NCBI GenBank assembly: GCA_001783695.1
Contig: MFNE01000022.1
Coordinates: forward strand, 1 to 46,619
DNA: 46,619 bases
Direction: 5' to 3'
From: Candidatus Lambdaproteobacteria bacterium RIFOXYD2_FULL_50_16
Lineage (GTDB): Bacteria; SAR324; XYD2-FULL-50-16
A program made the position numbers and the translations under genes. The notes below the pieces were generated by a model. That model ran no database searches, was not told the origin of the DNA, and worked only from the letters and a program-made list of their open reading frames with translations. This document shows, piece by piece, positions 9,380 to 19,495 of the stretch. Position 1 is the first letter of the stretch, and every line of letters begins with the position of its first letter.

Positions 9380-11193
9380 ATGAGTCCATTGGGCTGTTAA
9401 ACAAGGTTTTTGGGTTCGAAGGCTTTCGCGGGGAGCAAGAGGCGATTTGTAGCCAGATTTTAGGTGGCGGCGACGCCTTGGTGTTGATGCCAACAGGGGG
9501 CGGAAAATCCCTTTGTTATCAATTGCCCGCGCTGTTACTGCCGGGCACGGCCTTGGTGGTTTCACCCTTGATTGCTTTAATGAAGGATCAAGTCGAATCT
9601 TTGCGGGAGCTTGGGGTGCAGGCGGGATTTTTAAACAGCAGCCAAAGCCCCGCCGAGGCCCGTGAGGTGGAAGCCAAACTTTTAAGGGGAGAGCTTAAAC
9701 TCCTCTATGTTGCCCCCGAGCGGCTTAATACCGACAGCTTTTACCACCTTTTGCGGCGTTTTCAGGTAAGTTTATTTGCGGTGGACGAAGCGCACTGTGT
9801 CTCCAAATGGGGCCACGACTTCCGCCCTGAATATTTACAGTTAGCCAGACTTTTTGGCTATTTCCCCAATATCCCCAAAATCGCCCTGACCGCTACGGCA
9901 GATCAAGCGACCAAAGAGGAAATCATCCAACGATTGGGGCTAGAGAGGGCTCAGGTCTTTATTTCTAGCTTCGACCGACCCAATCTTTTTTACCGCATTG
10001 CCCACAAACAGGATGGCCGCCGCCAACTATTAGCCTTTATTCAAAGCAAACATGCAGGCGAAGCAGGGATTGTTTATTGTTTGAGCCGAAAAAAGGTGGA
10101 GGACACCGCCAAGTGGCTCTGTACCCAGGGGATCAAGGCACTTCCCTACCACGCAGGGCTGGCGCCAGAGCAGCGGGCCAGGAATCAAGAGGTGTTTATT
10201 AAAAAAGAGGGCCTAGTGATGGTGGCTACCATCGCTTTTGGGATGGGTATCGATAAGCCAGATATTAGGTTTGTGGTACACATGGACCTCCCTAAAAACC
10301 TAGAGGCCTATTATCAAGAAACAGGCCGCGCCGGGCGCGATGGCCTCAAGGCAGACCTGTTCCTACTCTACAATCTAGCCGATTTAATCACCCACCGCAA
10401 ATTTGCCAATAACCCAGACCTCCCCCCCGAAGTGGCGGTCCATGAAGAGGCGCGGCGGGTTTGGTTTTTAAGTTTTTTAGAGTCGATTCGGTGCCGCCGG
10501 GAATCAATCCTCGAATATTTTGGCGAGAAATACCAAGGCCCTTGCGGGGCTTGTGACAACTGCCTAGACCGGCCCCAACAAAAAGAAGGCACCTTGCTGG
10601 CTCAACAGGCGTTGTCTAACATTTATCGCACGGGCCAACGTTATGGAGTAGGCCATTTGGTGCAGGTGTTAATGGGGGCCTCCAGTCCAAAAATAAAACA
10701 ATTAGGCCATGATCAACTTAGCACCTACGGGTTGGGCCGAAGTGCCAGCGAGGAAGATTGGAAGGGGGTTTACCGGCAGTTGATGGCCCAAGGGTTGGTC
10801 AAGGTGGACCCCGAAGGAGGAGGCTTATTTTTAAGTGACCTCGCCCGACCTGTGCTCAAGGGACAAGCCCCGGTTTTTCTGCGCGAGGACGCGGTTTCTT
10901 TCCAGCGCTTAGCCAAGACCAGCAGCCGTCCAACTCGCCCGGTTGCCGCCGAATTCAGTCGGTCCGATTCGAAGGACCTATTCGAACGCTTGCGCCAGCT
11001 TCGCCGTGAACTAGCCAGCGAGCGCGACCTGCCCCCCTATATGATTTTTAACGACAAAAGCCTTTGGGAAATGGCTGAAGTCCGGCCACAAAGCCTGATT
11101 GCCTTAGGCCATCTCTATGGGGTAGGGGAGGTCAAGTTAGAGCATTATGGCGATGATTTTTTAAGGGTTATTAGGGATTTTGAGGCGGGTTAG
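9376..11193 (+). CDS. recQ: ATP-dependent DNA helicase RecQ
   Basis: 605-aa superfamily 2 helicase acting 3' to 5' in recombination and fork repair. Walker A is TGGGKS (Lys ~44) and the Walker B box is DEAHC. Motif VI is QETGRAGRDG, the RQC zinc ligands include CRRESIL and CGACDNC, and an HRDC-like segment lies at the C-terminus. The ATG at 9376 overlaps the mutM stop; the reading frame is open a little further upstream but without reason to prefer it. The 3' end overlaps the convergent permease gene by 23 bases, so both genes use the same DNA for their last codons. Confidence 0.95.
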   Translation: MNESIGLLNKVFGFEGFRGEQEAICSQILGGGDALVLMPTGGGKSLCYQLPALLLPGTALVVSPLIALMKDQVESLRELGVQAGFLNSSQSPAEAREVEAKLLRGELKLLYVAPERLNTDSFYHLLRRFQVSLFAVDEAHCVSKWGHDFRPEYLQLARLFGYFPNIPKIALTATADQATKEEIIQRLGLERAQVFISSFDRPNLFYRIAHKQDGRRQLLAFIQSKHAGEAGIVYCLSRKKVEDTAKWLCTQGIKALPYHAGLAPEQRARNQEVFIKKEGLVMVATIAFGMGIDKPDIRFVVHMDLPKNLEAYYQETGRAGRDGLKADLFLLYNLADLITHRKFANNPDLPPEVAVHEEARRVWFLSFLESIRCRRESILEYFGEKYQGPCGACDNCLDRPQQKEGTLLAQQALSNIYRTGQRYGVGHLVQVLMGASSPKIKQLGHDQLSTYGLGRSASEEDWKGVYRQLMAQGLVKVDPEGGGLFLSDLARPVLKGQAPVFLREDAVSFQRLAKTSSRPTRPVAAEFSRSDSKDLFERLRQLRRELASERDLPPYMIFNDKSLWEMAEVRPQSLIALGHLYGVGEVKLEHYGDDFLRVIRDFEAG

Positions 11194-11944
11194 CCCTATC
11201 CTTGCCCAGGTCTGAGATCAGTGACTTTAAAAACAGCGACTTCGCCCAGCCCAAAAGGGGAAGGATCATAAAAAGACCAATCCCCAAATTTTGCCAATAA
11301 GCCAGTTCCTCGGCCCAAGCGGACCAAAAGGCTTTCGCCAGCCAGTATGGCGGGAAGACTAGGCCAATGAGGTTCCCATAAGGCGGGGTGAGGAAATAGG
11401 CCAAAATCGGCAGTCCGCCTAAGATCTGAAGCAGCCGCGCCAAGGCCATGGCCCCCTCACGGTTGGCAGAAAAAGAAAATAACAAGAGACAAAGCAGCGG
11501 GGTTTGCAGGCTCGCCGCCAAGGCCATCCAGAGGATTGGGGCTAGGTCTAAAGGCTCATGAGGGGCAATTAAGAGGCAACCCAGAATTGTAAGATAAGAG
11601 AGGAGCGCGGGCACCCAAAGCCGGTAGGCCAGATAAGCCCTTTTAGGCAAGGGCAGCGCCAAAAGAGCGCAGAGCCCCGATTGCCGCTCTTCTAAAAGCA
11701 ACTCAGCAGCCCATAATCCTAAGCTTAAAGGGGCAAGCCACAAAAAAAGGAAACCCAAAATCAAGGGGTAATGCGCGACAAGATCAAAATCGTCTTTAAG
11801 CCAAAAACTCAAACGAGGAAGTAACATCCGCGCCATTAAGGCGTTGAGCCAAGGGGTCAGTAAGAGCAGGCCAAGGCGCGAGTCCCGGCGGCTTCTAAGC
11901 CCATCACCTTTTATTAATTGCCAAAGAGGCTTAAGCCCTTCCAT
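11171..11944 (-). CDS. ABC-2-like permease subunit B
   Basis: 257-aa protein with about six hydrophobic helices, such as LILGFLFLWLAPLSLGLW, ALLSYLTILGCLLI and LGIGLFMILPLLGW. The LLLEERQSGLCALLALPLPKRAYLAYR segment after the second helix is the EExxG-type cytoplasmic loop seen in ABC-2 exporters, which contacts the ATPase. It overlaps the upstream permease by 14 bases. The frame has GTG-ATG at its start, and the ATG at 11944 is chosen. It is the last gene of the kinase/ABC operon. The substrate is unknown. Confidence 0.65.
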   Translation of the reverse strand: MEGLKPLWQLIKGDGLRSRRDSRLGLLLLTPWLNALMARMLLPRLSFWLKDDFDLVAHYPLILGFLFLWLAPLSLGLWAAELLLEERQSGLCALLALPLPKRAYLAYRLWVPALLSYLTILGCLLIAPHEPLDLAPILWMALAASLQTPLLCLLLFSFSANREGAMALARLLQILGGLPILAYFLTPPYGNLIGLVFPPYWLAKAFWSAWAEELAYWQNLGIGLFMILPLLGWAKSLFLKSLISDLGKDRANPPQNP

Positions 11945-12596
11945 CACTCCTCAAGGCTTGAGCCGCCATCCAGTAAGCAAAAAAAGCCCACCCGAAAGAC
12001 AATAGCCACCCCTCGGTCCGATCAGGCCACAACATAAGGCTTAGCGGACCGTAACCGGGCAAGAGACGAAGGAACCAAATTGGCCAACCGGCCAGCAGAC
12101 CCATCCCTGGGAGTTGGTATAAAAATACCAAACCTAAAGCCGGAAAAATAAAATCGCCCATGGCAGGCCGCTTTAATGCGAAATAGAGCCCCCAACCGGT
12201 TTGGGCGAACCCGAGTAGGATCAGGCCAGGCAAGTGGAAAAGTGCTTGAACCCCCAGTGCCCCAATCCCTGAAGCTAGACCAAAACCAATAAAGACCAGG
12301 GCAGCACTAAAAAATTTGCCTGCTAAATATTCCTTGGTTTTAAGCGGGGAGGCCTTTAGGAGTCCCCAAGCCCCTTCGCGGCGTTCAAGCCATAACAAAG
12401 TGGCGCTCAAAAAAAGTCCGGTTCCACCAATGCCGGTGACCAACCCCAAGGGTAAAGCTAAAGCCCTTTGTTCAGGTGAAAAAAAAGCTCTTACCAAGAG
12501 CCCCGCCATTAGCCCTAATCCCAAGGCCAGGGGGGCAAAGCGGTAGCGGAACATCAATAGTAATTCGAGCCTAGTTTGCGTCCAAACCCGTCCCAT
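11931..12596 (-). CDS. ABC-2-like permease subunit A
   Basis: 221-aa protein with about six hydrophobic helices, among them FAPLALGLGLMAGLLVRAFF and ALVFIGFGLASGIGALGV. It carries the loop ERREGAWGLLKASPLKTKEYLAGK, which matches the ERExGt.e.L...P....y...K pattern of ABC-2 exporters. It probably pairs with the second permease to form a heterodimeric membrane domain. The gap to the ATPase gene is 31 bases. Confidence 0.65.
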   Translation of the reverse strand: MGRVWTQTRLELLLMFRYRFAPLALGLGLMAGLLVRAFFSPEQRALALPLGLVTGIGGTGLFLSATLLWLERREGAWGLLKASPLKTKEYLAGKFFSAALVFIGFGLASGIGALGVQALFHLPGLILLGFAQTGWGLYFALKRPAMGDFIFPALGLVFLYQLPGMGLLAGWPIWFLRLLPGYGPLSLMLWPDRTEGWLLSFGWAFFAYWMAAQALRSDGRA

Positions 12597-12627: not shown

Positions 12628-13470
12628 TCAAAGCGGCCTCCCCGTGAACTCCCGGTAAGCTTGGGCGAGGTCGGCGTTTTGGGTGTAGAGCGCTTTGGGG
12701 CCTAAAGCAAGTAGGCGTTGGAATTCAGGGTTTTGGTCCAGACCTAAAAGTGGGAATCGGGCCTCCCGAAGCTCGCCTTTTTCCTCCCATTCTAGGACCA
12801 GCGGGTTTTCTTGGCGGTTTTTTAGCAGTTGCAAAATATTTCCTTGAGCCAATATCTTCCCCCCTGCCATAAAGCCCACTTGGTCGGCGAGATGGGCTGT
12901 AAAGTCAATTGAGTCCGCAGTAAAAAACAGGGTTTTGCCGGCCTCTTTTTCCGTTTTTAGGAGGCGCTCAATTTGCAAAACCCAATCGGGCTCCAGCCCT
13001 TGGCCGGGCTGGTCTAAGAGCAAGATCGAGGGGTTGTGTAGGAGTGCCCTGGCTAAACTTAACCGGCGGGCTTCACCTTGGGAAAGCTGGCCTGCTGGCT
13101 GGTCTCTCAACGACCTTAAACCCAATTGGTCTAATAATTCGTCGATCGGGCGACAGGGACCTTGGTAAAAACCTTTAAAATACTGCAAATTTTCAAAGAC
13201 ACTAAGCCGCAAATAATGCCCTTCGCTTAAGAGACCCAGACTTTCATAAATCCCTTGATCCGCCGTTTCCAGAGGTTGGGTGCCCAACTGAATTTGACCT
13301 TGATAACCCCTTAGAAGCCCAGCTAAAACCTGAACCAAAGTGGTTTTGCCAGCGCCTTTAGGGCCTAAAAGCACAAACGCCTCTCCTGTTTTAATATCCA
13401 AGTCGATTTGATCGATGGCTGGGCTGGCTTGATGGCTAAAAGAAAAACGCAGGCCTTTGGTTTTTATCAT
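12628..13470 (-). CDS. ABC transporter ATP-binding protein lacking the catalytic Glu and switch His
   Basis: 280-aa nucleotide-binding domain. Walker A is GPKGAGKTT (36-44), the signature is LSQGE (129-133) and Walker B is ILLLDQP (149-155). The residue after the Walker B Asp is Gln154, where the family has the catalytic Glu. The segment that should hold the switch His reads FFTADSIDF, with Ala185 at the His position. The Q-loop Gln is also not evident (LLSEGHYLRLSVFENL). The C-terminal ~65 residues form a regulatory tail seen in CcmA/DrrA-like subunits. It starts one base after the kinase stop codon. ATP binding is plausible; hydrolysis looks impaired (inference). Confidence 0.85.
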   Translation of the reverse strand: MIKTKGLRFSFSHQASPAIDQIDLDIKTGEAFVLLGPKGAGKTTLVQVLAGLLRGYQGQIQLGTQPLETADQGIYESLGLLSEGHYLRLSVFENLQYFKGFYQGPCRPIDELLDQLGLRSLRDQPAGQLSQGEARRLSLARALLHNPSILLLDQPGQGLEPDWVLQIERLLKTEKEAGKTLFFTADSIDFTAHLADQVGFMAGGKILAQGNILQLLKNRQENPLVLEWEEKGELREARFPLLGLDQNPEFQRLLALGPKALYTQNADLAQAYREFTGRPL

Positions 13471-13471
13471 C

Positions 13472-16400
13472 TTAATCTAAGCTGGTTTGGATGATTTTTA
13501 AGCTTTTTAAGGCGGCCTCAAAATCGAAGTTATCGATTTGCTCGAACATTTCCTTGGCCACAAAGGCCGAAGGGTGCGGGCCTAAAAGTCGCTCTAACTC
13601 CTGAGCCAAGCGCTCTGCGTGAATCGCCTCGCCACGACCGATAGCCGGTTCTAACTCAACCATTTTTGCCCGTGCCTCCTCCAGATATATCTCCCCCGTG
13701 GGTGCGCTGACAGGCTGGAATTGCTCCAGTGTTTTAGACAATTTTTCAATCGAATCGAGTACTTCCTTTAAGGACAAAAGACAGGCTGGGCCTGCTAATA
13801 AAATCCCCTCGTGGTCTAGTTCTTTGGCGCGGTTTTCTAACTCTTCTGCAGTTTTGGCCAAACCCTCGGCAGAGATGTTTCCCGCAGTGCCCCTTATTTT
13901 GTGGCCAAGAGCAGCGATTTTGGAGAACTCAACTGAACCTATTAATTGTTCGAGTGCCTTGGCCGTTTCTAGGTTTTGCCGGCGGAAGTCTTTGAGGGCG
14001 TCCAGATAGGCCCGCTGCGAATCGCCCCACCGGCAAAGCCCTTTGGCCAATTCGATTCCTGGGACTTCTATAGACCCTAAATCGGTTTCGCTTTCACTGG
14101 GTTTCGCCTGAACCTCGGGCAGCTGGCCTAATAAGTTGCTGATTAAAGGGAAAAGCCGATTAAAATCCACCGGTTTGGCAACTAAGCCGTCCATTCCTGA
14201 TTCAAACACCGCCCCTCTGGCTAATTCTTGATCAGTGCCGGAGATGGCTAAAATCGGGGTGCGTTTGAGATGTTGCTCCTCCTCAAACCGGCGCAGGGCC
14301 AAAGCGGTCTCAAATCCGTTTAAGCCAGGGAGTTGCAAATCCAATAAAATCAGATCATAAGACCGGTTGTTCACCCGCTCTAAAGCCTCTTCCCCAGAGA
14401 CCGCCAAGGAGACCTGGATCATCTTTTCTTTTAACCGGGTTTCCAACAAGAGGCGGTTGGTCGAGTCGTCATCGACCACTAAAACCTTGGCACTGCGTCC
14501 GAAACTTAAGGTTTTCGAATCCGCCAAAGTGACGGGCTCTTCGCTTTGGATCAGGCCTAAGCGACGAGCGGCGTCCATGATTCGTTCTTTAAGTTCCTCG
14601 CGTTTGACCGGTTTAAATAAAAACAAGGGCTCACCCAATTCGATCAGGGCTTTTTGGTATTGGGGGGTAAAAAAGGAAAATAGGAAGACAATCGGGGTTT
14701 TTTTATAGGCTAAATTTTCCTTTATTTGACGAGCCAAGGTGATGCCGTCGATATCAGGCATTTGCACGTCCATAATAATCAACTCAAACGGCCTCGCCTT
14801 GGCCCGCTCGATCTGGTACAGCGCCTCTTTAGGCCCTTGGGCCAACCTAGGATTGAGCCCCCAACTGGTTAGAATCGACTGGAAGTTTTCCAGATTTGTC
14901 GGGTTGTCGTCGATCACTAACACCTGTTTAAGTGGAAGCCCCTGCAAGGTTTTAGAGCGCTCATCTGGTTGATTTTTAGGCAATTTTAAGATGAGATTAA
15001 AATAAAAAGTGGTTCCTTGGCCCAAAGTGGAATCCACCCTAATCTTGCCCCCCATTAACTCAACAAGCTGTTTGGCGATGGTAGTACCCAGACCGGTCCC
15101 GCCGTATTTACGGGTGGTCGAGTCGTCGGTCTGAGTGAAGGATTCAAATATTTTGTCGATCCGGTCTGCCGGAATACCAATGCCCGTGTCTTTGACCGAA
15201 AAAGCGAGGGTAATCTCTTGTTCGCTCCGTTCCTTTTGACTGAGCTGGATTACGACCGAGCCGGTTTCGGTAAATTTGATAGCGTTACCGATCAGGTTGA
15301 CCAAAATCTGCCTTAGTCTAGTGGGGTCTCCCATTACAAAAGCGGGTACCTGGGGCTCTATCTTTAAAATAAAATCGAGCCCTTTTTTTTGCGCATCTAG
15401 GCTAAGGGTCTCCATGCACTCTTCTAGGAGTTGCTCTAAATCAAAACCAATCACTTCTAGGGTAAGGTGGTCGCCTTCCATCTTGGAAAGGTCAAGAATA
15501 TCGTTAAGAAGTTTTAACAAAGACTTAGCCCCGCCATTGGCGGCTTTGATGTAGCGTCTTTGGTTCTGGTTTAGATTGGTTTCTAAAGCTAGTTCCGTCA
15601 TCCCCAAGATCCCGTTCATCGGGGTGCGGATTTCATGAGAGATGTTAGCTAAAAAGGAGGATTTCAAGCGGTTGGCTACCTGTGCCTCTTCCTTGGCCCG
15701 GATTAATTTGGCCTCCATTTTTTTTTGTTCGGTAATGTCTCGAATTAGCCCGGTATAAATGGTTTCTGAGCGGTAGAGGGTCTCGGAGATGGAGATATAG
15801 GCTGGATGAAGCCCCTGGTCCTTGTGTAATACACTTACCTCTTGGCCTTTGCCTACCTTGGACTTGATCACCTGCTCCATGTATTTATCCAGACTTTCAA
15901 GCGCCTCTTCGGTCCCTGGCAGTAGATTAGAGATATTAAGCCCCAAGGCCTCTTCTTCGGTATATCCAAAAATATCTTCTGCCGCTCGGTTAAAAGATTG
16001 GATCAAACCTCGATGGTTAAAGGTAATAATCCCATCTACCGCCGAATCCACAATCGCAAGATGACGACCATAGGATTCGACTAGGCTGTTTTTCATGCGG
16101 TTAAAGGTGATGGTCAGATCCCCTAATTCATCATTGGTTTCCACTGGAATATCTTGGCCTAAGTCCCCGGCGGCAAAGGCGTGACTGGCGTGGGCTAGGT
16201 GGTGAATGGGGCGCGTGATAGCAGCGGATTTTTTAGCCGAAAACCAAAGAGCACTAATGATCATTATTAAAACTAGTAGCAGATTAACCCCCATCGAAAC
16301 CGTCGCAATTAAGGTGGCTTGATTGGCGTCGCCAGCAATCTCACCACCCAAGATTTCGTCGAGTTCTAAAATCGCTTGGGTGACCCTGGCTTGCAAGGGC

Positions 16401-17203
16401 ATCATCTGGGTGCTCTGCAAATAGAGCGAGCGGTTCCAGTCGGGCGCTTGTCGAGCTTGGAAAACCTCATGGCAGACGCTCTGGTATCGCAGGAGTCCCG
16501 CATTAAATCCACTAAGGGCAGGCGCCATCAGCGGAGAAGCCTCCTTTTGGGCTTCGGCTAATAGTTGGTTTACTTGAGCGAAATCCTCATCTAGCACTTG
16601 GGCCTCGCCGCCTTCATCTAAATAGCTCAACACCCGCAGATTGATTTTTTCAAGGTCTTCACCAAGCCGTCTGATTGATTTTTTAAATCCCCCTCCCCCG
16701 GTTCTCGTTAACCGTTCGGCTGCCTCGGACAAGTCCCGGTAGAGGGGCATGCCAGACTGGTTATAGAGTAACCGGGCTGGTTGCTCTTCAGGGGTGTGGG
16801 CCAGGGATTCAATTTGGGCTTGAATACTGTGAAGTTCGGCCAAAAGATCAATTAGCTGGTCCAGGTGCCGGTTAATTTCGGTCTCATCCTGGGTGGTCAG
16901 ATCTTTGAGATTTTTGTAGCTAGGATAGACAAATTCCTTCCAAACCTGATTGCGTAGAACCCGCGACTCTTGGCTGGGCAGGGTTATGTAGTTAAGAAGA
17001 ATAGTGGCACTTTGGTAAACCCCACGGTCAATATGGTCTAGCGCCTCCATTCGAGGCTGGCTGATCAAAGCCAATTTATGGGTCGAAGAACGTAGCCATA
17101 AAGTCGTAAAAAAAGCGACCAACAAAAGCAACACGCCAATGGCGGCGAGGCTTAGGTGGCTTATGAGCATTTGTTGTTTTAAACTGCTGCGCTTCGCTTT
17201 CAT
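13472..17203 (-). CDS. Hybrid sensor histidine kinase (TM-sensor-TM-HAMP-PAS-HisKA-HATPase-REC-REC-Hpt)
   Basis: 1243-aa inner-membrane kinase. A TM helix near residues 10-33 is followed by a mostly helical periplasmic sensor and a second TM at about 300-320, then HAMP and a PAS domain starting near 383. The phospho-acceptor His is ~523 (SHEIRTPMNG), with an ATPase domain behind it (VKDTGIGIP, GTGLGTTIAKQLV). Receiver 1 has Asp ~812 (MDVQMPD), receiver 2 Asp ~955 (LDLQLPG), and the C-terminal Hpt His is ~1101 (LGHKIRGTAGN). This is the BarA/TorS-type four-step phosphorelay layout; its final response regulator is not in the window. It is the first gene of the ABC operon, one base from the ATPase gene. 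Confidence 0.95.
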   Translation of the reverse strand: MKAKRSSLKQQMLISHLSLAAIGVLLLLVAFFTTLWLRSSTHKLALISQPRMEALDHIDRGVYQSATILLNYITLPSQESRVLRNQVWKEFVYPSYKNLKDLTTQDETEINRHLDQLIDLLAELHSIQAQIESLAHTPEEQPARLLYNQSGMPLYRDLSEAAERLTRTGGGGFKKSIRRLGEDLEKINLRVLSYLDEGGEAQVLDEDFAQVNQLLAEAQKEASPLMAPALSGFNAGLLRYQSVCHEVFQARQAPDWNRSLYLQSTQMMPLQARVTQAILELDEILGGEIAGDANQATLIATVSMGVNLLLVLIMIISALWFSAKKSAAITRPIHHLAHASHAFAAGDLGQDIPVETNDELGDLTITFNRMKNSLVESYGRHLAIVDSAVDGIITFNHRGLIQSFNRAAEDIFGYTEEEALGLNISNLLPGTEEALESLDKYMEQVIKSKVGKGQEVSVLHKDQGLHPAYISISETLYRSETIYTGLIRDITEQKKMEAKLIRAKEEAQVANRLKSSFLANISHEIRTPMNGILGMTELALETNLNQNQRRYIKAANGGAKSLLKLLNDILDLSKMEGDHLTLEVIGFDLEQLLEECMETLSLDAQKKGLDFILKIEPQVPAFVMGDPTRLRQILVNLIGNAIKFTETGSVVIQLSQKERSEQEITLAFSVKDTGIGIPADRIDKIFESFTQTDDSTTRKYGGTGLGTTIAKQLVELMGGKIRVDSTLGQGTTFYFNLILKLPKNQPDERSKTLQGLPLKQVLVIDDNPTNLENFQSILTSWGLNPRLAQGPKEALYQIERAKARPFELIIMDVQMPDIDGITLARQIKENLAYKKTPIVFLFSFFTPQYQKALIELGEPLFLFKPVKREELKERIMDAARRLGLIQSEEPVTLADSKTLSFGRSAKVLVVDDDSTNRLLLETRLKEKMIQVSLAVSGEEALERVNNRSYDLILLDLQLPGLNGFETALALRRFEEEQHLKRTPILAISGTDQELARGAVFESGMDGLVAKPVDFNRLFPLISNLLGQLPEVQAKPSESETDLGSIEVPGIELAKGLCRWGDSQRAYLDALKDFRRQNLETAKALEQLIGSVEFSKIAALGHKIRGTAGNISAEGLAKTAEELENRAKELDHEGILLAGPACLLSLKEVLDSIEKLSKTLEQFQPVSAPTGEIYLEEARAKMVELEPAIGRGEAIHAERLAQELERLLGPHPSAFVAKEMFEQIDNFDFEAALKSLKIIQTSLD

Positions 17204-17304
17204 CTAAAATCCAAGTCTGGTTAGCAAAGCCAGCTTACCCCAAGCAAATGGCCTTGCCTAGCGGGGCACTTGACAATTATGGAGCAAAAAAGCCTGGATT
17301 ACCG

Positions 17305-17970
17305 ATGAAAAACAAACAAGAATACTTTGCCAGTTTAAAAGCCTTATCCGAAAAAGGGATCAACCGGGTTGGGGTCTTGGACCCGGCGGACTATCCTGGT
17401 TTTGCTCAACTAGGAAGCGGGCGCTTGGTGCTTTTGATGATGGGTGGTTCCAGGTTTTGGGAATGGGCGTTGGCCCATTGGCCCAACACGCCCGATCCGC
17501 TGGATCAACTTTCAAAGCAAATAGTTCAACAATGGACCCAAGGTCTAGCATTAGAGGGGGTACATCTACTTTATCCAAGCGGGCTATGGCCTTTGGGGGA
17601 TTTATTGCCAGCTTTAGGTATAAGCCCCAGTCCGTTAGGGATCGGGATCGACCCAGAATGGGGCCTTTGGAACGCCCTGCGAGCCGTGATCTTTACCCAG
17701 TCTTTGTTGCCCCTAAGTCCGCCAATCCAGGCGGTTCCCCCTTGCCAAACCTGTCATTCCCGCCCTTGTTTGGCCGCTTGCGGCGCCCAGGCCGTGCAAT
17801 GGCCAGGGCCTTTTGACGGGCAAAGATGTCGAGCTTTTCGATTGGCTAAAGGTTCGCCCTGCGCCCAAGACTGCCCGGCTAGGCGGGCCTGCCCCCTGGG
17901 CAAGCCCTACCCAGACGAGCAAATCGCCTACCACACTTTAAAAAGTTTGGAGATGATTAAAGGAAGTTAA
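17305..17970 (+). CDS. Double-cluster ferredoxin-like iron-sulfur protein
   Basis: 221-aa protein. The N-terminal ~150 residues form a globular domain containing NTPDPLDQLSKQIV and SPLGIGIDPEWGLWNALR. The C-terminal part carries cysteines arranged CQTCHSRPCLAAC and later C-x-x-DCPARRAC, enough for two 4Fe-4S clusters. From memory this resembles the uncharacterised ferredoxin-annotated proteins of alphaproteobacteria, whose sequence also has PDPLD, SPLG...GLW and a CxxCxxxPCLxxCP box; their function is not known to me. The ATG at 17305 is chosen; the frame is open from 17248. It diverges from the kinase operon and converges on the ODP operon. Confidence 0.6.
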   Translation: MKNKQEYFASLKALSEKGINRVGVLDPADYPGFAQLGSGRLVLLMMGGSRFWEWALAHWPNTPDPLDQLSKQIVQQWTQGLALEGVHLLYPSGLWPLGDLLPALGISPSPLGIGIDPEWGLWNALRAVIFTQSLLPLSPPIQAVPPCQTCHSRPCLAACGAQAVQWPGPFDGQRCRAFRLAKGSPCAQDCPARRACPLGKPYPDEQIAYHTLKSLEMIKGS

Positions 17971-18006
17971 CCCAAGCCCCCAGCAAGTGCAGGGGGGGTT
18001 GGTTAA
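17967..18006. terminator. Bidirectional hairpin between convergent genes
   Basis: TTAACC...AAGCCCCC and GGGGG...TTGGTTAA form an imperfect hairpin that includes both stop codons of the flanking convergent genes. It could end transcription from either side. Confidence 0.5.
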
Positions 18007-18743
18007 TAAACGATCTGACCGACCTTGAGGTCGTGTAACCATTCGAGGAAAGTTTTAATCATCTTACCCTGGTATATTAGCCCGTGTTGCGGGGCTAAAA
18101 AGTCCAGATCAAGCTCTAAAACCCGCTCGCACCACTGGTTTTTATGCTCGTTGCTACCTAACCACCGTTTGTGGAACCCTTCAATTAGTGGGAGGTGGGC
18201 ATCGAAGTTCTTAACAAAGGGATCATCGCCGTCTTTAGGGATAATCGCCGCCCCAATATCTCCAGAAAACAATATCTTAGCTTCTGGATCATAGAGGCTA
18301 AAGTTGCCCGAACTATGAACATAATGAGCTGGAATCGCCTGGAGGTTAAGGTTACCCAAAGGGATCGACATACCCTCGTCAGGTATTAATTCAAAAGTGT
18401 TGGCGGCGCCTGCAAAGTGTAACATAAAGCCCAACCAGATCTTGGGCAGATAAACCTTGAGGTCCGGTTTGATCTGCAACCAAAGGGCGATACTAGAGAA
18501 AACGTCCGGGTCTTGATGGGTGCAAAACACCCGATCAATCGCAGCAAAATCCACAATCTCGGCAATAGAAGAGACTATCTCTGGGAACACCTCGGTTCCA
18601 CCTGGATCGGTCAAAAGCACACTAGAGCCCGACTGAATCACGTATTCCTTGGTGCCAACTAGATGGCTGGCCCTTTTGGGGTCTTTATAAAGACAGTACC
18701 ATTTATGGTCGCCTTTTTCGTATATCGGCAGGTATTTTTTCAT
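18003..18743 (-). CDS. ODP/flavodiiron-type metallo-beta-lactamase protein, paralogue 2
   Basis: 246-aa single-domain MBL-fold protein like the diiron part of flavodiiron (FprA) proteins and the oxygen-binding ODP proteins, with no flavodoxin domain. Likely metal ligands are His, Asp and Asp in CTHQDPDVFSS, His in IPAHYVHSSGNF, Asp in LFSGDIGAA and His in APQHGLIY. The fourth His of the usual HxExDH box is Val, and the Glu is Asp, both consistent with a sensor or redox role rather than hydrolysis. The start overlaps the previous gene (ATGA). It is close in sequence to paralogue 1, which points to tandem duplication. Confidence 0.75.
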   Translation of the reverse strand: MKKYLPIYEKGDHKWYCLYKDPKRASHLVGTKEYVIQSGSSVLLTDPGGTEVFPEIVSSIAEIVDFAAIDRVFCTHQDPDVFSSIALWLQIKPDLKVYLPKIWLGFMLHFAGAANTFELIPDEGMSIPLGNLNLQAIPAHYVHSSGNFSLYDPEAKILFSGDIGAAIIPKDGDDPFVKNFDAHLPLIEGFHKRWLGSNEHKNQWCERVLELDLDFLAPQHGLIYQGKMIKTFLEWLHDLKVGQIVY

Positions 18744-19495
18744 AAACTAACACTCCTGTTGCTTGCCGAACCTACGTTGAGACCTCTAAGCCAAGAGATA
18801 AACTGTTTAACCTGTTCCCCCTTGTAAATCGAGCCATGCTGGGGACACAAGAGTTGGATATCTAATTCCGCCACCCGCGCACACCAAGCGTTTTTGTGAT
18901 CGTTGCTGCCTAACCAACGGCGGTGGAAATATTCGATATGGGGGATATGGGCTTCGAAATTTTGCACAAACAAATGGCGTTGGTCGTCGGGCAAGAGGGC
19001 CGCGCCGATGTCGCCAGAAAAATAGATCTTAGCCTGCCGGTCAAACAGATGAAAATTGCCGGCAGAATGACAATGGTGGGCAGGGATCACGTCTAGTTTA
19101 TAGCCACCCAGGTCAATCACCATTCCCTTGTCGTCGATAGAGATATAGGTCTCCTCGGTGCCACCAAAATGGGGCACAAAACTTTTCCAAAGCCAGGAGA
19201 TGTAACATTTAATCTGGGGATTGATCTCTTGCCACAAAGACAGCGAACTGGCGATGTCTGGGTCTTGATGGCTGGCGAACACCCGGTTGATTTTCATAGG
19301 GTCCACCACCTGCACCAAAGTCGAAAGAACCGCCGGAAAAACCGCAAATCCACCTGGATCTAGCAAAATATGGTCGTCCCGGTGGGATATTAGGTATTCA
19401 TTGGAGTCAAGAATATCTGCCGGTTTTTTGGGGTCCATGTAGAGCACCGTCCAGCGGTGCTCACCGCGCTCAAAGAGGACGTGGTATTTTTTCAT
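18740..19495 (-). CDS. ODP/flavodiiron-type metallo-beta-lactamase protein, paralogue 1
   Basis: 251-aa single-domain protein with the same layout as its downstream neighbour: ASHQDPDIASS, IPAHHCHSAGNF, YFSGDIGAALLP, FHRRWLGSNDHKNAW and CPQHGSIYKG. These blocks match the diiron pocket of FprA/ODP proteins, which bind oxygen and, in Treponema, feed into chemotaxis signalling (established for ODP; assignment here is inference). It starts 3 bases after the chemoreceptor-like gene and overlaps paralogue 2 by 4 bases. The two may form a heterodimer, since flavodiiron domains pair head to tail. Confidence 0.75.
   Translation of the reverse strand: MKKYHVLFERGEHRWTVLYMDPKKPADILDSNEYLISHRDDHILLDPGGFAVFPAVLSTLVQVVDPMKINRVFASHQDPDIASSLSLWQEINPQIKCYISWLWKSFVPHFGGTEETYISIDDKGMVIDLGGYKLDVIPAHHCHSAGNFHLFDRQAKIYFSGDIGAALLPDDQRHLFVQNFEAHIPHIEYFHRRWLGSNDHKNAWCARVAELDIQLLCPQHGSIYKGEQVKQFISWLRGLNVGSASNRSVSL

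Follow-up and report, generated by a model that had tools for sequence, protein, structure and literature searches.

The locus described here raises the question whether an ABC ATPase with natural substitutions at its catalytic site still drives a transporter, has taken on another role or is in decay. It lies in the window, i.e. the whole stretch of 46,619 nucleotides that was analysed, and is considered below together with its operon, its relatives and its neighbouring genes.

The ATPase gene and its operon

The gene at 12628..13470 on the minus strand encodes an ABC ATPase of 280 aa, which was assigned as a degenerate DrrA/FLQE-type protein by alignment, by a Pfam ABC_tran match (3.6e-25, 89.6 bits) and by a structure model. 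The AlphaFold model has a pLDDT of 90.8 and finds nucleotide-binding domain (NBD) matches in the PDB. Walker A (GPKGAGKTT, residues 36-44) and the signature (LSQGE, residues 129-133) are intact both in the open reading frame and in the alignment, as had been claimed from the sequence alone, and the C-terminal domain (residues 220-280) is conserved. By its Walker A, Walker-B Asp, LSxG signature and NBD fold, the protein is an NBD homologue.

Both permease genes are located downstream on the same strand, giving the order ATPase-permease-permease. Permease 1 (221 aa, 11931..12596) shows a weak match to PF24686 FLQE3_permease, with 31.8 bits against a cut-off of 60. Permease 2 (258 aa, 11171..11947), which overlaps permease 1 by 17 bases, resembles part of a fused Halobaculum permease. 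A contig search with the ATPase as query returned generic ABC proteins only. A tblastn search of plasmids with permease 2 gave a single match, to this haloarchaeal fused permease, whose plasmid also encodes an ATPase, and it was this match that led to the comparison with FLQE-type systems. FLQE3 matches occurred in 11 of 301 genomes sampled for the phylum of a Chloroflexota genome and, at a looser limit, in 58 of 349 sampled for that of a Blautia genome, with ATPase genes adjoining the permease; a scan of Verrucomicrobiota gave one distant match.

In the Chloroflexota the loci are ordered ATPase-FLQE3-permease 2, and the ATPases of relatives with strong FLQE3 matches are 32-39% identical to the window ATPase over its full length. 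Since FLQE-type ATPases align with the window protein from end to end, including the C-terminal TGRxL end, the gene was assigned to the DrrA/FLQE-type exporter ATPases; it carries the Glu of the Q-loop (Glu83) and the conserved C-terminal domain of this type, and ends in ADLAQAYREFTGRPL. It is not DrrA proper, because its score against the drrA subfamily model TIGR01188 is 128.5 bits, below the cut-off of 312, a cut-off under which an intact Chloroflexota FLQE relative also falls (226 bits). The locus is thus a putative DrrA/FLQE-type (fluoroquinolone-export-like) ABC exporter operon. An operon of the FLQE type, Rv2688c-Rv2687c-Rv2686c of M. tuberculosis, has been linked to fluoroquinolone efflux (PMC6300501). 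The window resembles that type in its ATPase-permease-permease order and in the weak FLQE3 match of permease 1, and it shares the C-terminal domain and the Q-loop Glu of the ATPase with Chloroflexota relatives of the type; this likeness is drawn via those relatives and Pfam rather than via M. tuberculosis sequences and does not imply fluoroquinolone export. It differs in that the FLQE3 score of permease 1 falls short of the Pfam threshold and in that the ATPase has lost its catalytic Glu, its D-loop Asp and its switch His.

Catalytic residues

The sequence-only reading had placed Gln154 in the position of the catalytic Glu of Walker B (LLLDQP), and this was confirmed: its codon, CAG at 13009..13011 (minus strand), falls in the Glu column. 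The same reading had found the switch His replaced by Ala185. The loss of the His stands, but its position was off by one. No gaps occur between GKT and LAD(R/Q)V when the protein is aligned with relatives reading 'TTHDM' and 'TSHKLEE', where the window reads TADSI; this rules out Ala185, which takes the place of the Thr or Ser preceding the switch His, and puts Asp186 (codon GAC, 12913..12915, minus strand) in the His column. In the AlphaFold model the strand formed by residues 180-185 stops just ahead of Asp186, the expected place of the switch residue. Two further changes had gone unmentioned, namely the D-loop Asp to Glu160 (GLEP instead of GLDP) and, next to the Pro of Walker B, the following Thr to Gly156.

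The Q-loop Gln had also been described as not evident. The residue is indeed Glu83, but it is no sign of degeneration, since all 40 FLQE-type relatives covering the position carry Glu there. The actual anomaly of the Q-loop is a deletion of two residues directly after Glu83 (residues 83-90), at a place where Pro-Asn is invariant in the 12 relatives compared most closely. The region just after the Q-loop touches the coupling helix of the permease in other ABC proteins.

The baseline for these columns was provided by 41 other FLQE-type ATPases (28 from Bacillota, 11 from Chloroflexota, one haloarchaeal and one distant from Verrucomicrobiota). All 41 retain the Walker-B Glu, the D-loop Asp and the switch His, and departures were seen only in the window (Q154/E160/D186) and in its closest counterpart described below (D/D/H). 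The three changes together can therefore not be regarded as noise in this family. An active ABC ATPase should carry both the catalytic Walker-B Glu and the switch His, and the window has Gln154 and Asp186 instead, which on sequence grounds weakens any claim of an active ATPase and leaves the NBD homology intact. The earlier suggestion that hydrolysis is impaired is well supported by the sequence, with Glu to Gln, His to Asp and D-loop Asp to Glu all unique in the family sample.

A syntenic orthologue in another genus

Two of the 52 phylum genomes were found to contain the operon, the window genome and G002, which belongs to another genus of the same family. The G002 locus is syntenic, with recQ, permease 2, permease 1, the ATPase, two extra genes and an orthologous histidine kinase, and the reading frames of all three operon genes are intact in both genera with matching order. 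The two extra genes (L062 8058-9575), absent at the window locus, encode a multihaem cytochrome c (Cytochrom_CIII/C7) and a protein without a Pfam match.

In the G002 ATPase the Glu column is occupied by Asp (LLLLLDDP), and the switch His (TSHK) and the D-loop Asp are retained, so that the Glu is lost in both proteins, and the His and the D-loop Asp in the window alone. Of the idea that orthologues might share both changes, the loss of Glu holds, with Asp as the G002 residue, and the loss of His does not. Standard Glu and His in orthologues had been named as a sign of local mutation or sequence error; both are present in the 41 wider relatives, and the G002 orthologue has His without Glu. The changes are accordingly neither a shared design of the family nor a simple local error, because the relatives are canonical, yet G002 also lacks the Glu.

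Evolutionary rate and constraint

Between the window and G002 the ATPases are 37% identical, the permeases 38% and 44-45% (permease 2 about 45%), the neighbouring histidine kinase 55% and RecQ 63%; for two further ABC ATPases encoded in both genomes the values are 68 and 70%. The ATPase is normally the more conserved part of an ABC system, and in 38 Chloroflexota FLQE pairs whose permeases 2 share less than 50% identity the ATPases are 54-71% identical. The window and G002 ATPases are no better conserved than the permeases they belong with, which inverts the usual relation. In the ATPase tree they are sisters (99/83) with end branches of 2.98 and 3.5 (median 0.24), and this length makes the rate estimates for both imprecise. 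The ratios of ATPase to permease distance for this pair are 1.32 and 1.94 (medians 0.63 and 0.61), and pairs with a permease distance above 0.5 otherwise reach at most 1.00.

Out of 89 columns invariant in 12 relatives, 52 are retained and 37 lost in the window, and 56 retained and 33 lost in G002. Gly, Lys and Thr of Walker A, the Walker-B Asp and Ser and Gly of the signature are among those retained, and the C-terminal domain is kept too. Codon-position G+C and codon use resemble those of neighbouring genes. The catalytic constraint on the ATPase is relaxed or changed, with unbroken reading frames.

The histidine kinase and other neighbouring genes

Upstream of the ATPase, a gene at 13472..17203 (minus strand) encodes a hybrid histidine kinase of 1243 aa with the architecture HAMP-PAS-HisKA-HATPase-REC-REC-Hpt. 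The coordinates bear out the earlier observation that the ATPase begins one base past its stop, a spacing that suggests co-transcription. The sensor part of the kinase was found mainly in the window genome and G002, with weaker matches in two others. A functional link between kinase and ATPase is only a lead, because two genes intervene in G002; the role of sensor or scaffold proposed earlier for the ATPase is possible.

Divergent from the kinase gene, a 240-aa protein encoded at 17248-17970 (plus strand) contains a Cys-rich stretch (CQTCHSRPCLAACG...CRAFRLAKGSPCAQDCPARRACPLG) and gave no Pfam or NCBIfam matches. Two adjacent, overlapping genes at 18003-18743 and 18740-19495 (minus strand) encode ODP-family (PF19583) proteins of metallo-beta-lactamase fold, and this tandem pair may represent di-iron oxygen or redox sensors.

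Proposed explanation and its alternatives

With moderate confidence, we interpret the protein as a lineage-specific degenerate NBD that is probably ATP-binding and slow or non-hydrolysing, belongs to an exporter with a single ATPase and has come under relaxed or altered constraint. ATP binding is plausible because Walker A, the Walker-B Asp and the signature are kept. As the operon holds one ATPase gene, a homodimer is the simplest assembly; by analogy with the family, two copies would sit under a heterodimer of the permeases, and both composite ATP sites would then be without catalytic Glu, switch His and D-loop Asp. In ABCB1 an engineered change of the Glu to Gln or Met stopped transport and trapped ATP; further changes can restore cycling, and a degenerate site of the ABCB11-like NBS1 kind can support transport with compensating residues (PMC7544095). 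An engineered second degenerate site abolished the function of CTS (PMC4652930), and Asp in the Glu column, as in G002, can hydrolyse slowly (PMC7756269). Given these precedents, binding of Mg-ATP with very slow or no hydrolysis appears most likely, and the complex would cycle rarely, or report the occupancy of ATP or substrate, rather than pump at a normal rate. The degenerate state would have arisen inside the bacterial family of the window and G002, with the Glu column lost in both known members (Gln and Asp, respectively) and the His and D-loop Asp lost in the window lineage alone, while constraint on the ATPase loosened or shifted and all three frames were kept.

The strongest rival, which we consider unlikely, is a decaying transporter whose ATPase drifts without selection for hydrolysis or a new role, in an operon heading for loss. 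The rarity of the operon in the phylum would fit, as would the number of family-invariant columns lost beyond the catalytic ones; against it, none of the three frames is broken in either genus, at a RecQ identity of only 63% between them, codon use and G+C by codon position are like those of the neighbours, the nucleotide-binding residues are kept and permease 2 is still conserved. Because the frames and nucleotide-binding residues survive across so deep a split, a retained regulatory or low-rate function is modestly favoured over decay. A specific form of retention, a hydrolysis-dead NBD homodimer kept with its permeases beside the kinase as an ATP-gated sensor or channel-like module rather than a pump, is doubtful. 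Equally doubtful is a motor that is still active with altered kinetics, other residues having taken over (e.g. Asp186 or acidic groups polarising water). We know of no case of Asp functionally replacing the switch His, and Glu to Gln is the standard hydrolysis-dead change; moreover, the loss of ATPase-specific conservation speaks against a preserved catalytic role, even though polar or acidic residues fill the altered columns (Gln154, Asp186, Glu160) and compensation by several residues is known for the ABCB11-like site (PMC7544095).

The sequence-only reading had also offered an active second ATPase as partner, which would make the protein the degenerate half of a heterodimeric pair that combines a dead with a live site, an arrangement known from TM287/288, BmrCD and TAP. 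Degenerate-site exporters are common, and Glu to Asp, as in G002, is a typical change in them (PMC7756269). Among the 30 ABC ATPase matches of the genome, 17 regions with 18 ABC open reading frames were inspected; nearly all of these adjoin their own membrane partners, one is in an LptB-like setting, and no orphan candidate was evident. The window operon, its orthologue and the relatives hold one ATPase gene each, and heterodimeric ABC systems usually encode both halves in one operon. An ATPase shared from another operon is possible, and the heterodimer as a whole is improbable. Least probable is that the catalytic codons reflect an error of sequencing or assembly. The window-specific changes come from one draft genome of 54 contigs, and a single base separates each of the codons of Q154, E160 and D186 from a canonical one; that three errors should arise independently and strike catalytic columns only is nevertheless very unlikely, the adjacent family-invariant residues at positions 156 (T156) and 185 (T185) are also changed, and G002 likewise has no Glu.

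Comparison with known systems and significance

The degenerate-site exporters TM287/288, BmrCD, TAP, ABCB11 and CFTR share with the window an ATP site without the Walker-B Glu. They combine one degenerate with one canonical site and have transmembrane domain and NBD fused in one chain, whereas the separate single ATPase of the window would make both sites degenerate. Engineered ATPases (e.g. LptB E163Q, PDB 6mbn and 4p33) likewise have Gln in the Glu column and an intact Walker A; in contrast to LptB E163Q, the Gln of the window is natural and is accompanied by His to Asp and D-loop Asp to Glu. A partial literature search found no description of a natural NBD homodimer in which both catalytic residues are absent. 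If confirmed, the locus would be a natural test of the abilities left to an ABC exporter with both ATP sites lacking catalytic residues, a condition that is otherwise obtained through mutagenesis, and the G002 locus, with Asp and a retained His, would provide an intermediate step by which the losses could be ordered. If it proves to be mere decay, it would be a tidy case of constraint on the ATPase relaxing ahead of that on the permeases.
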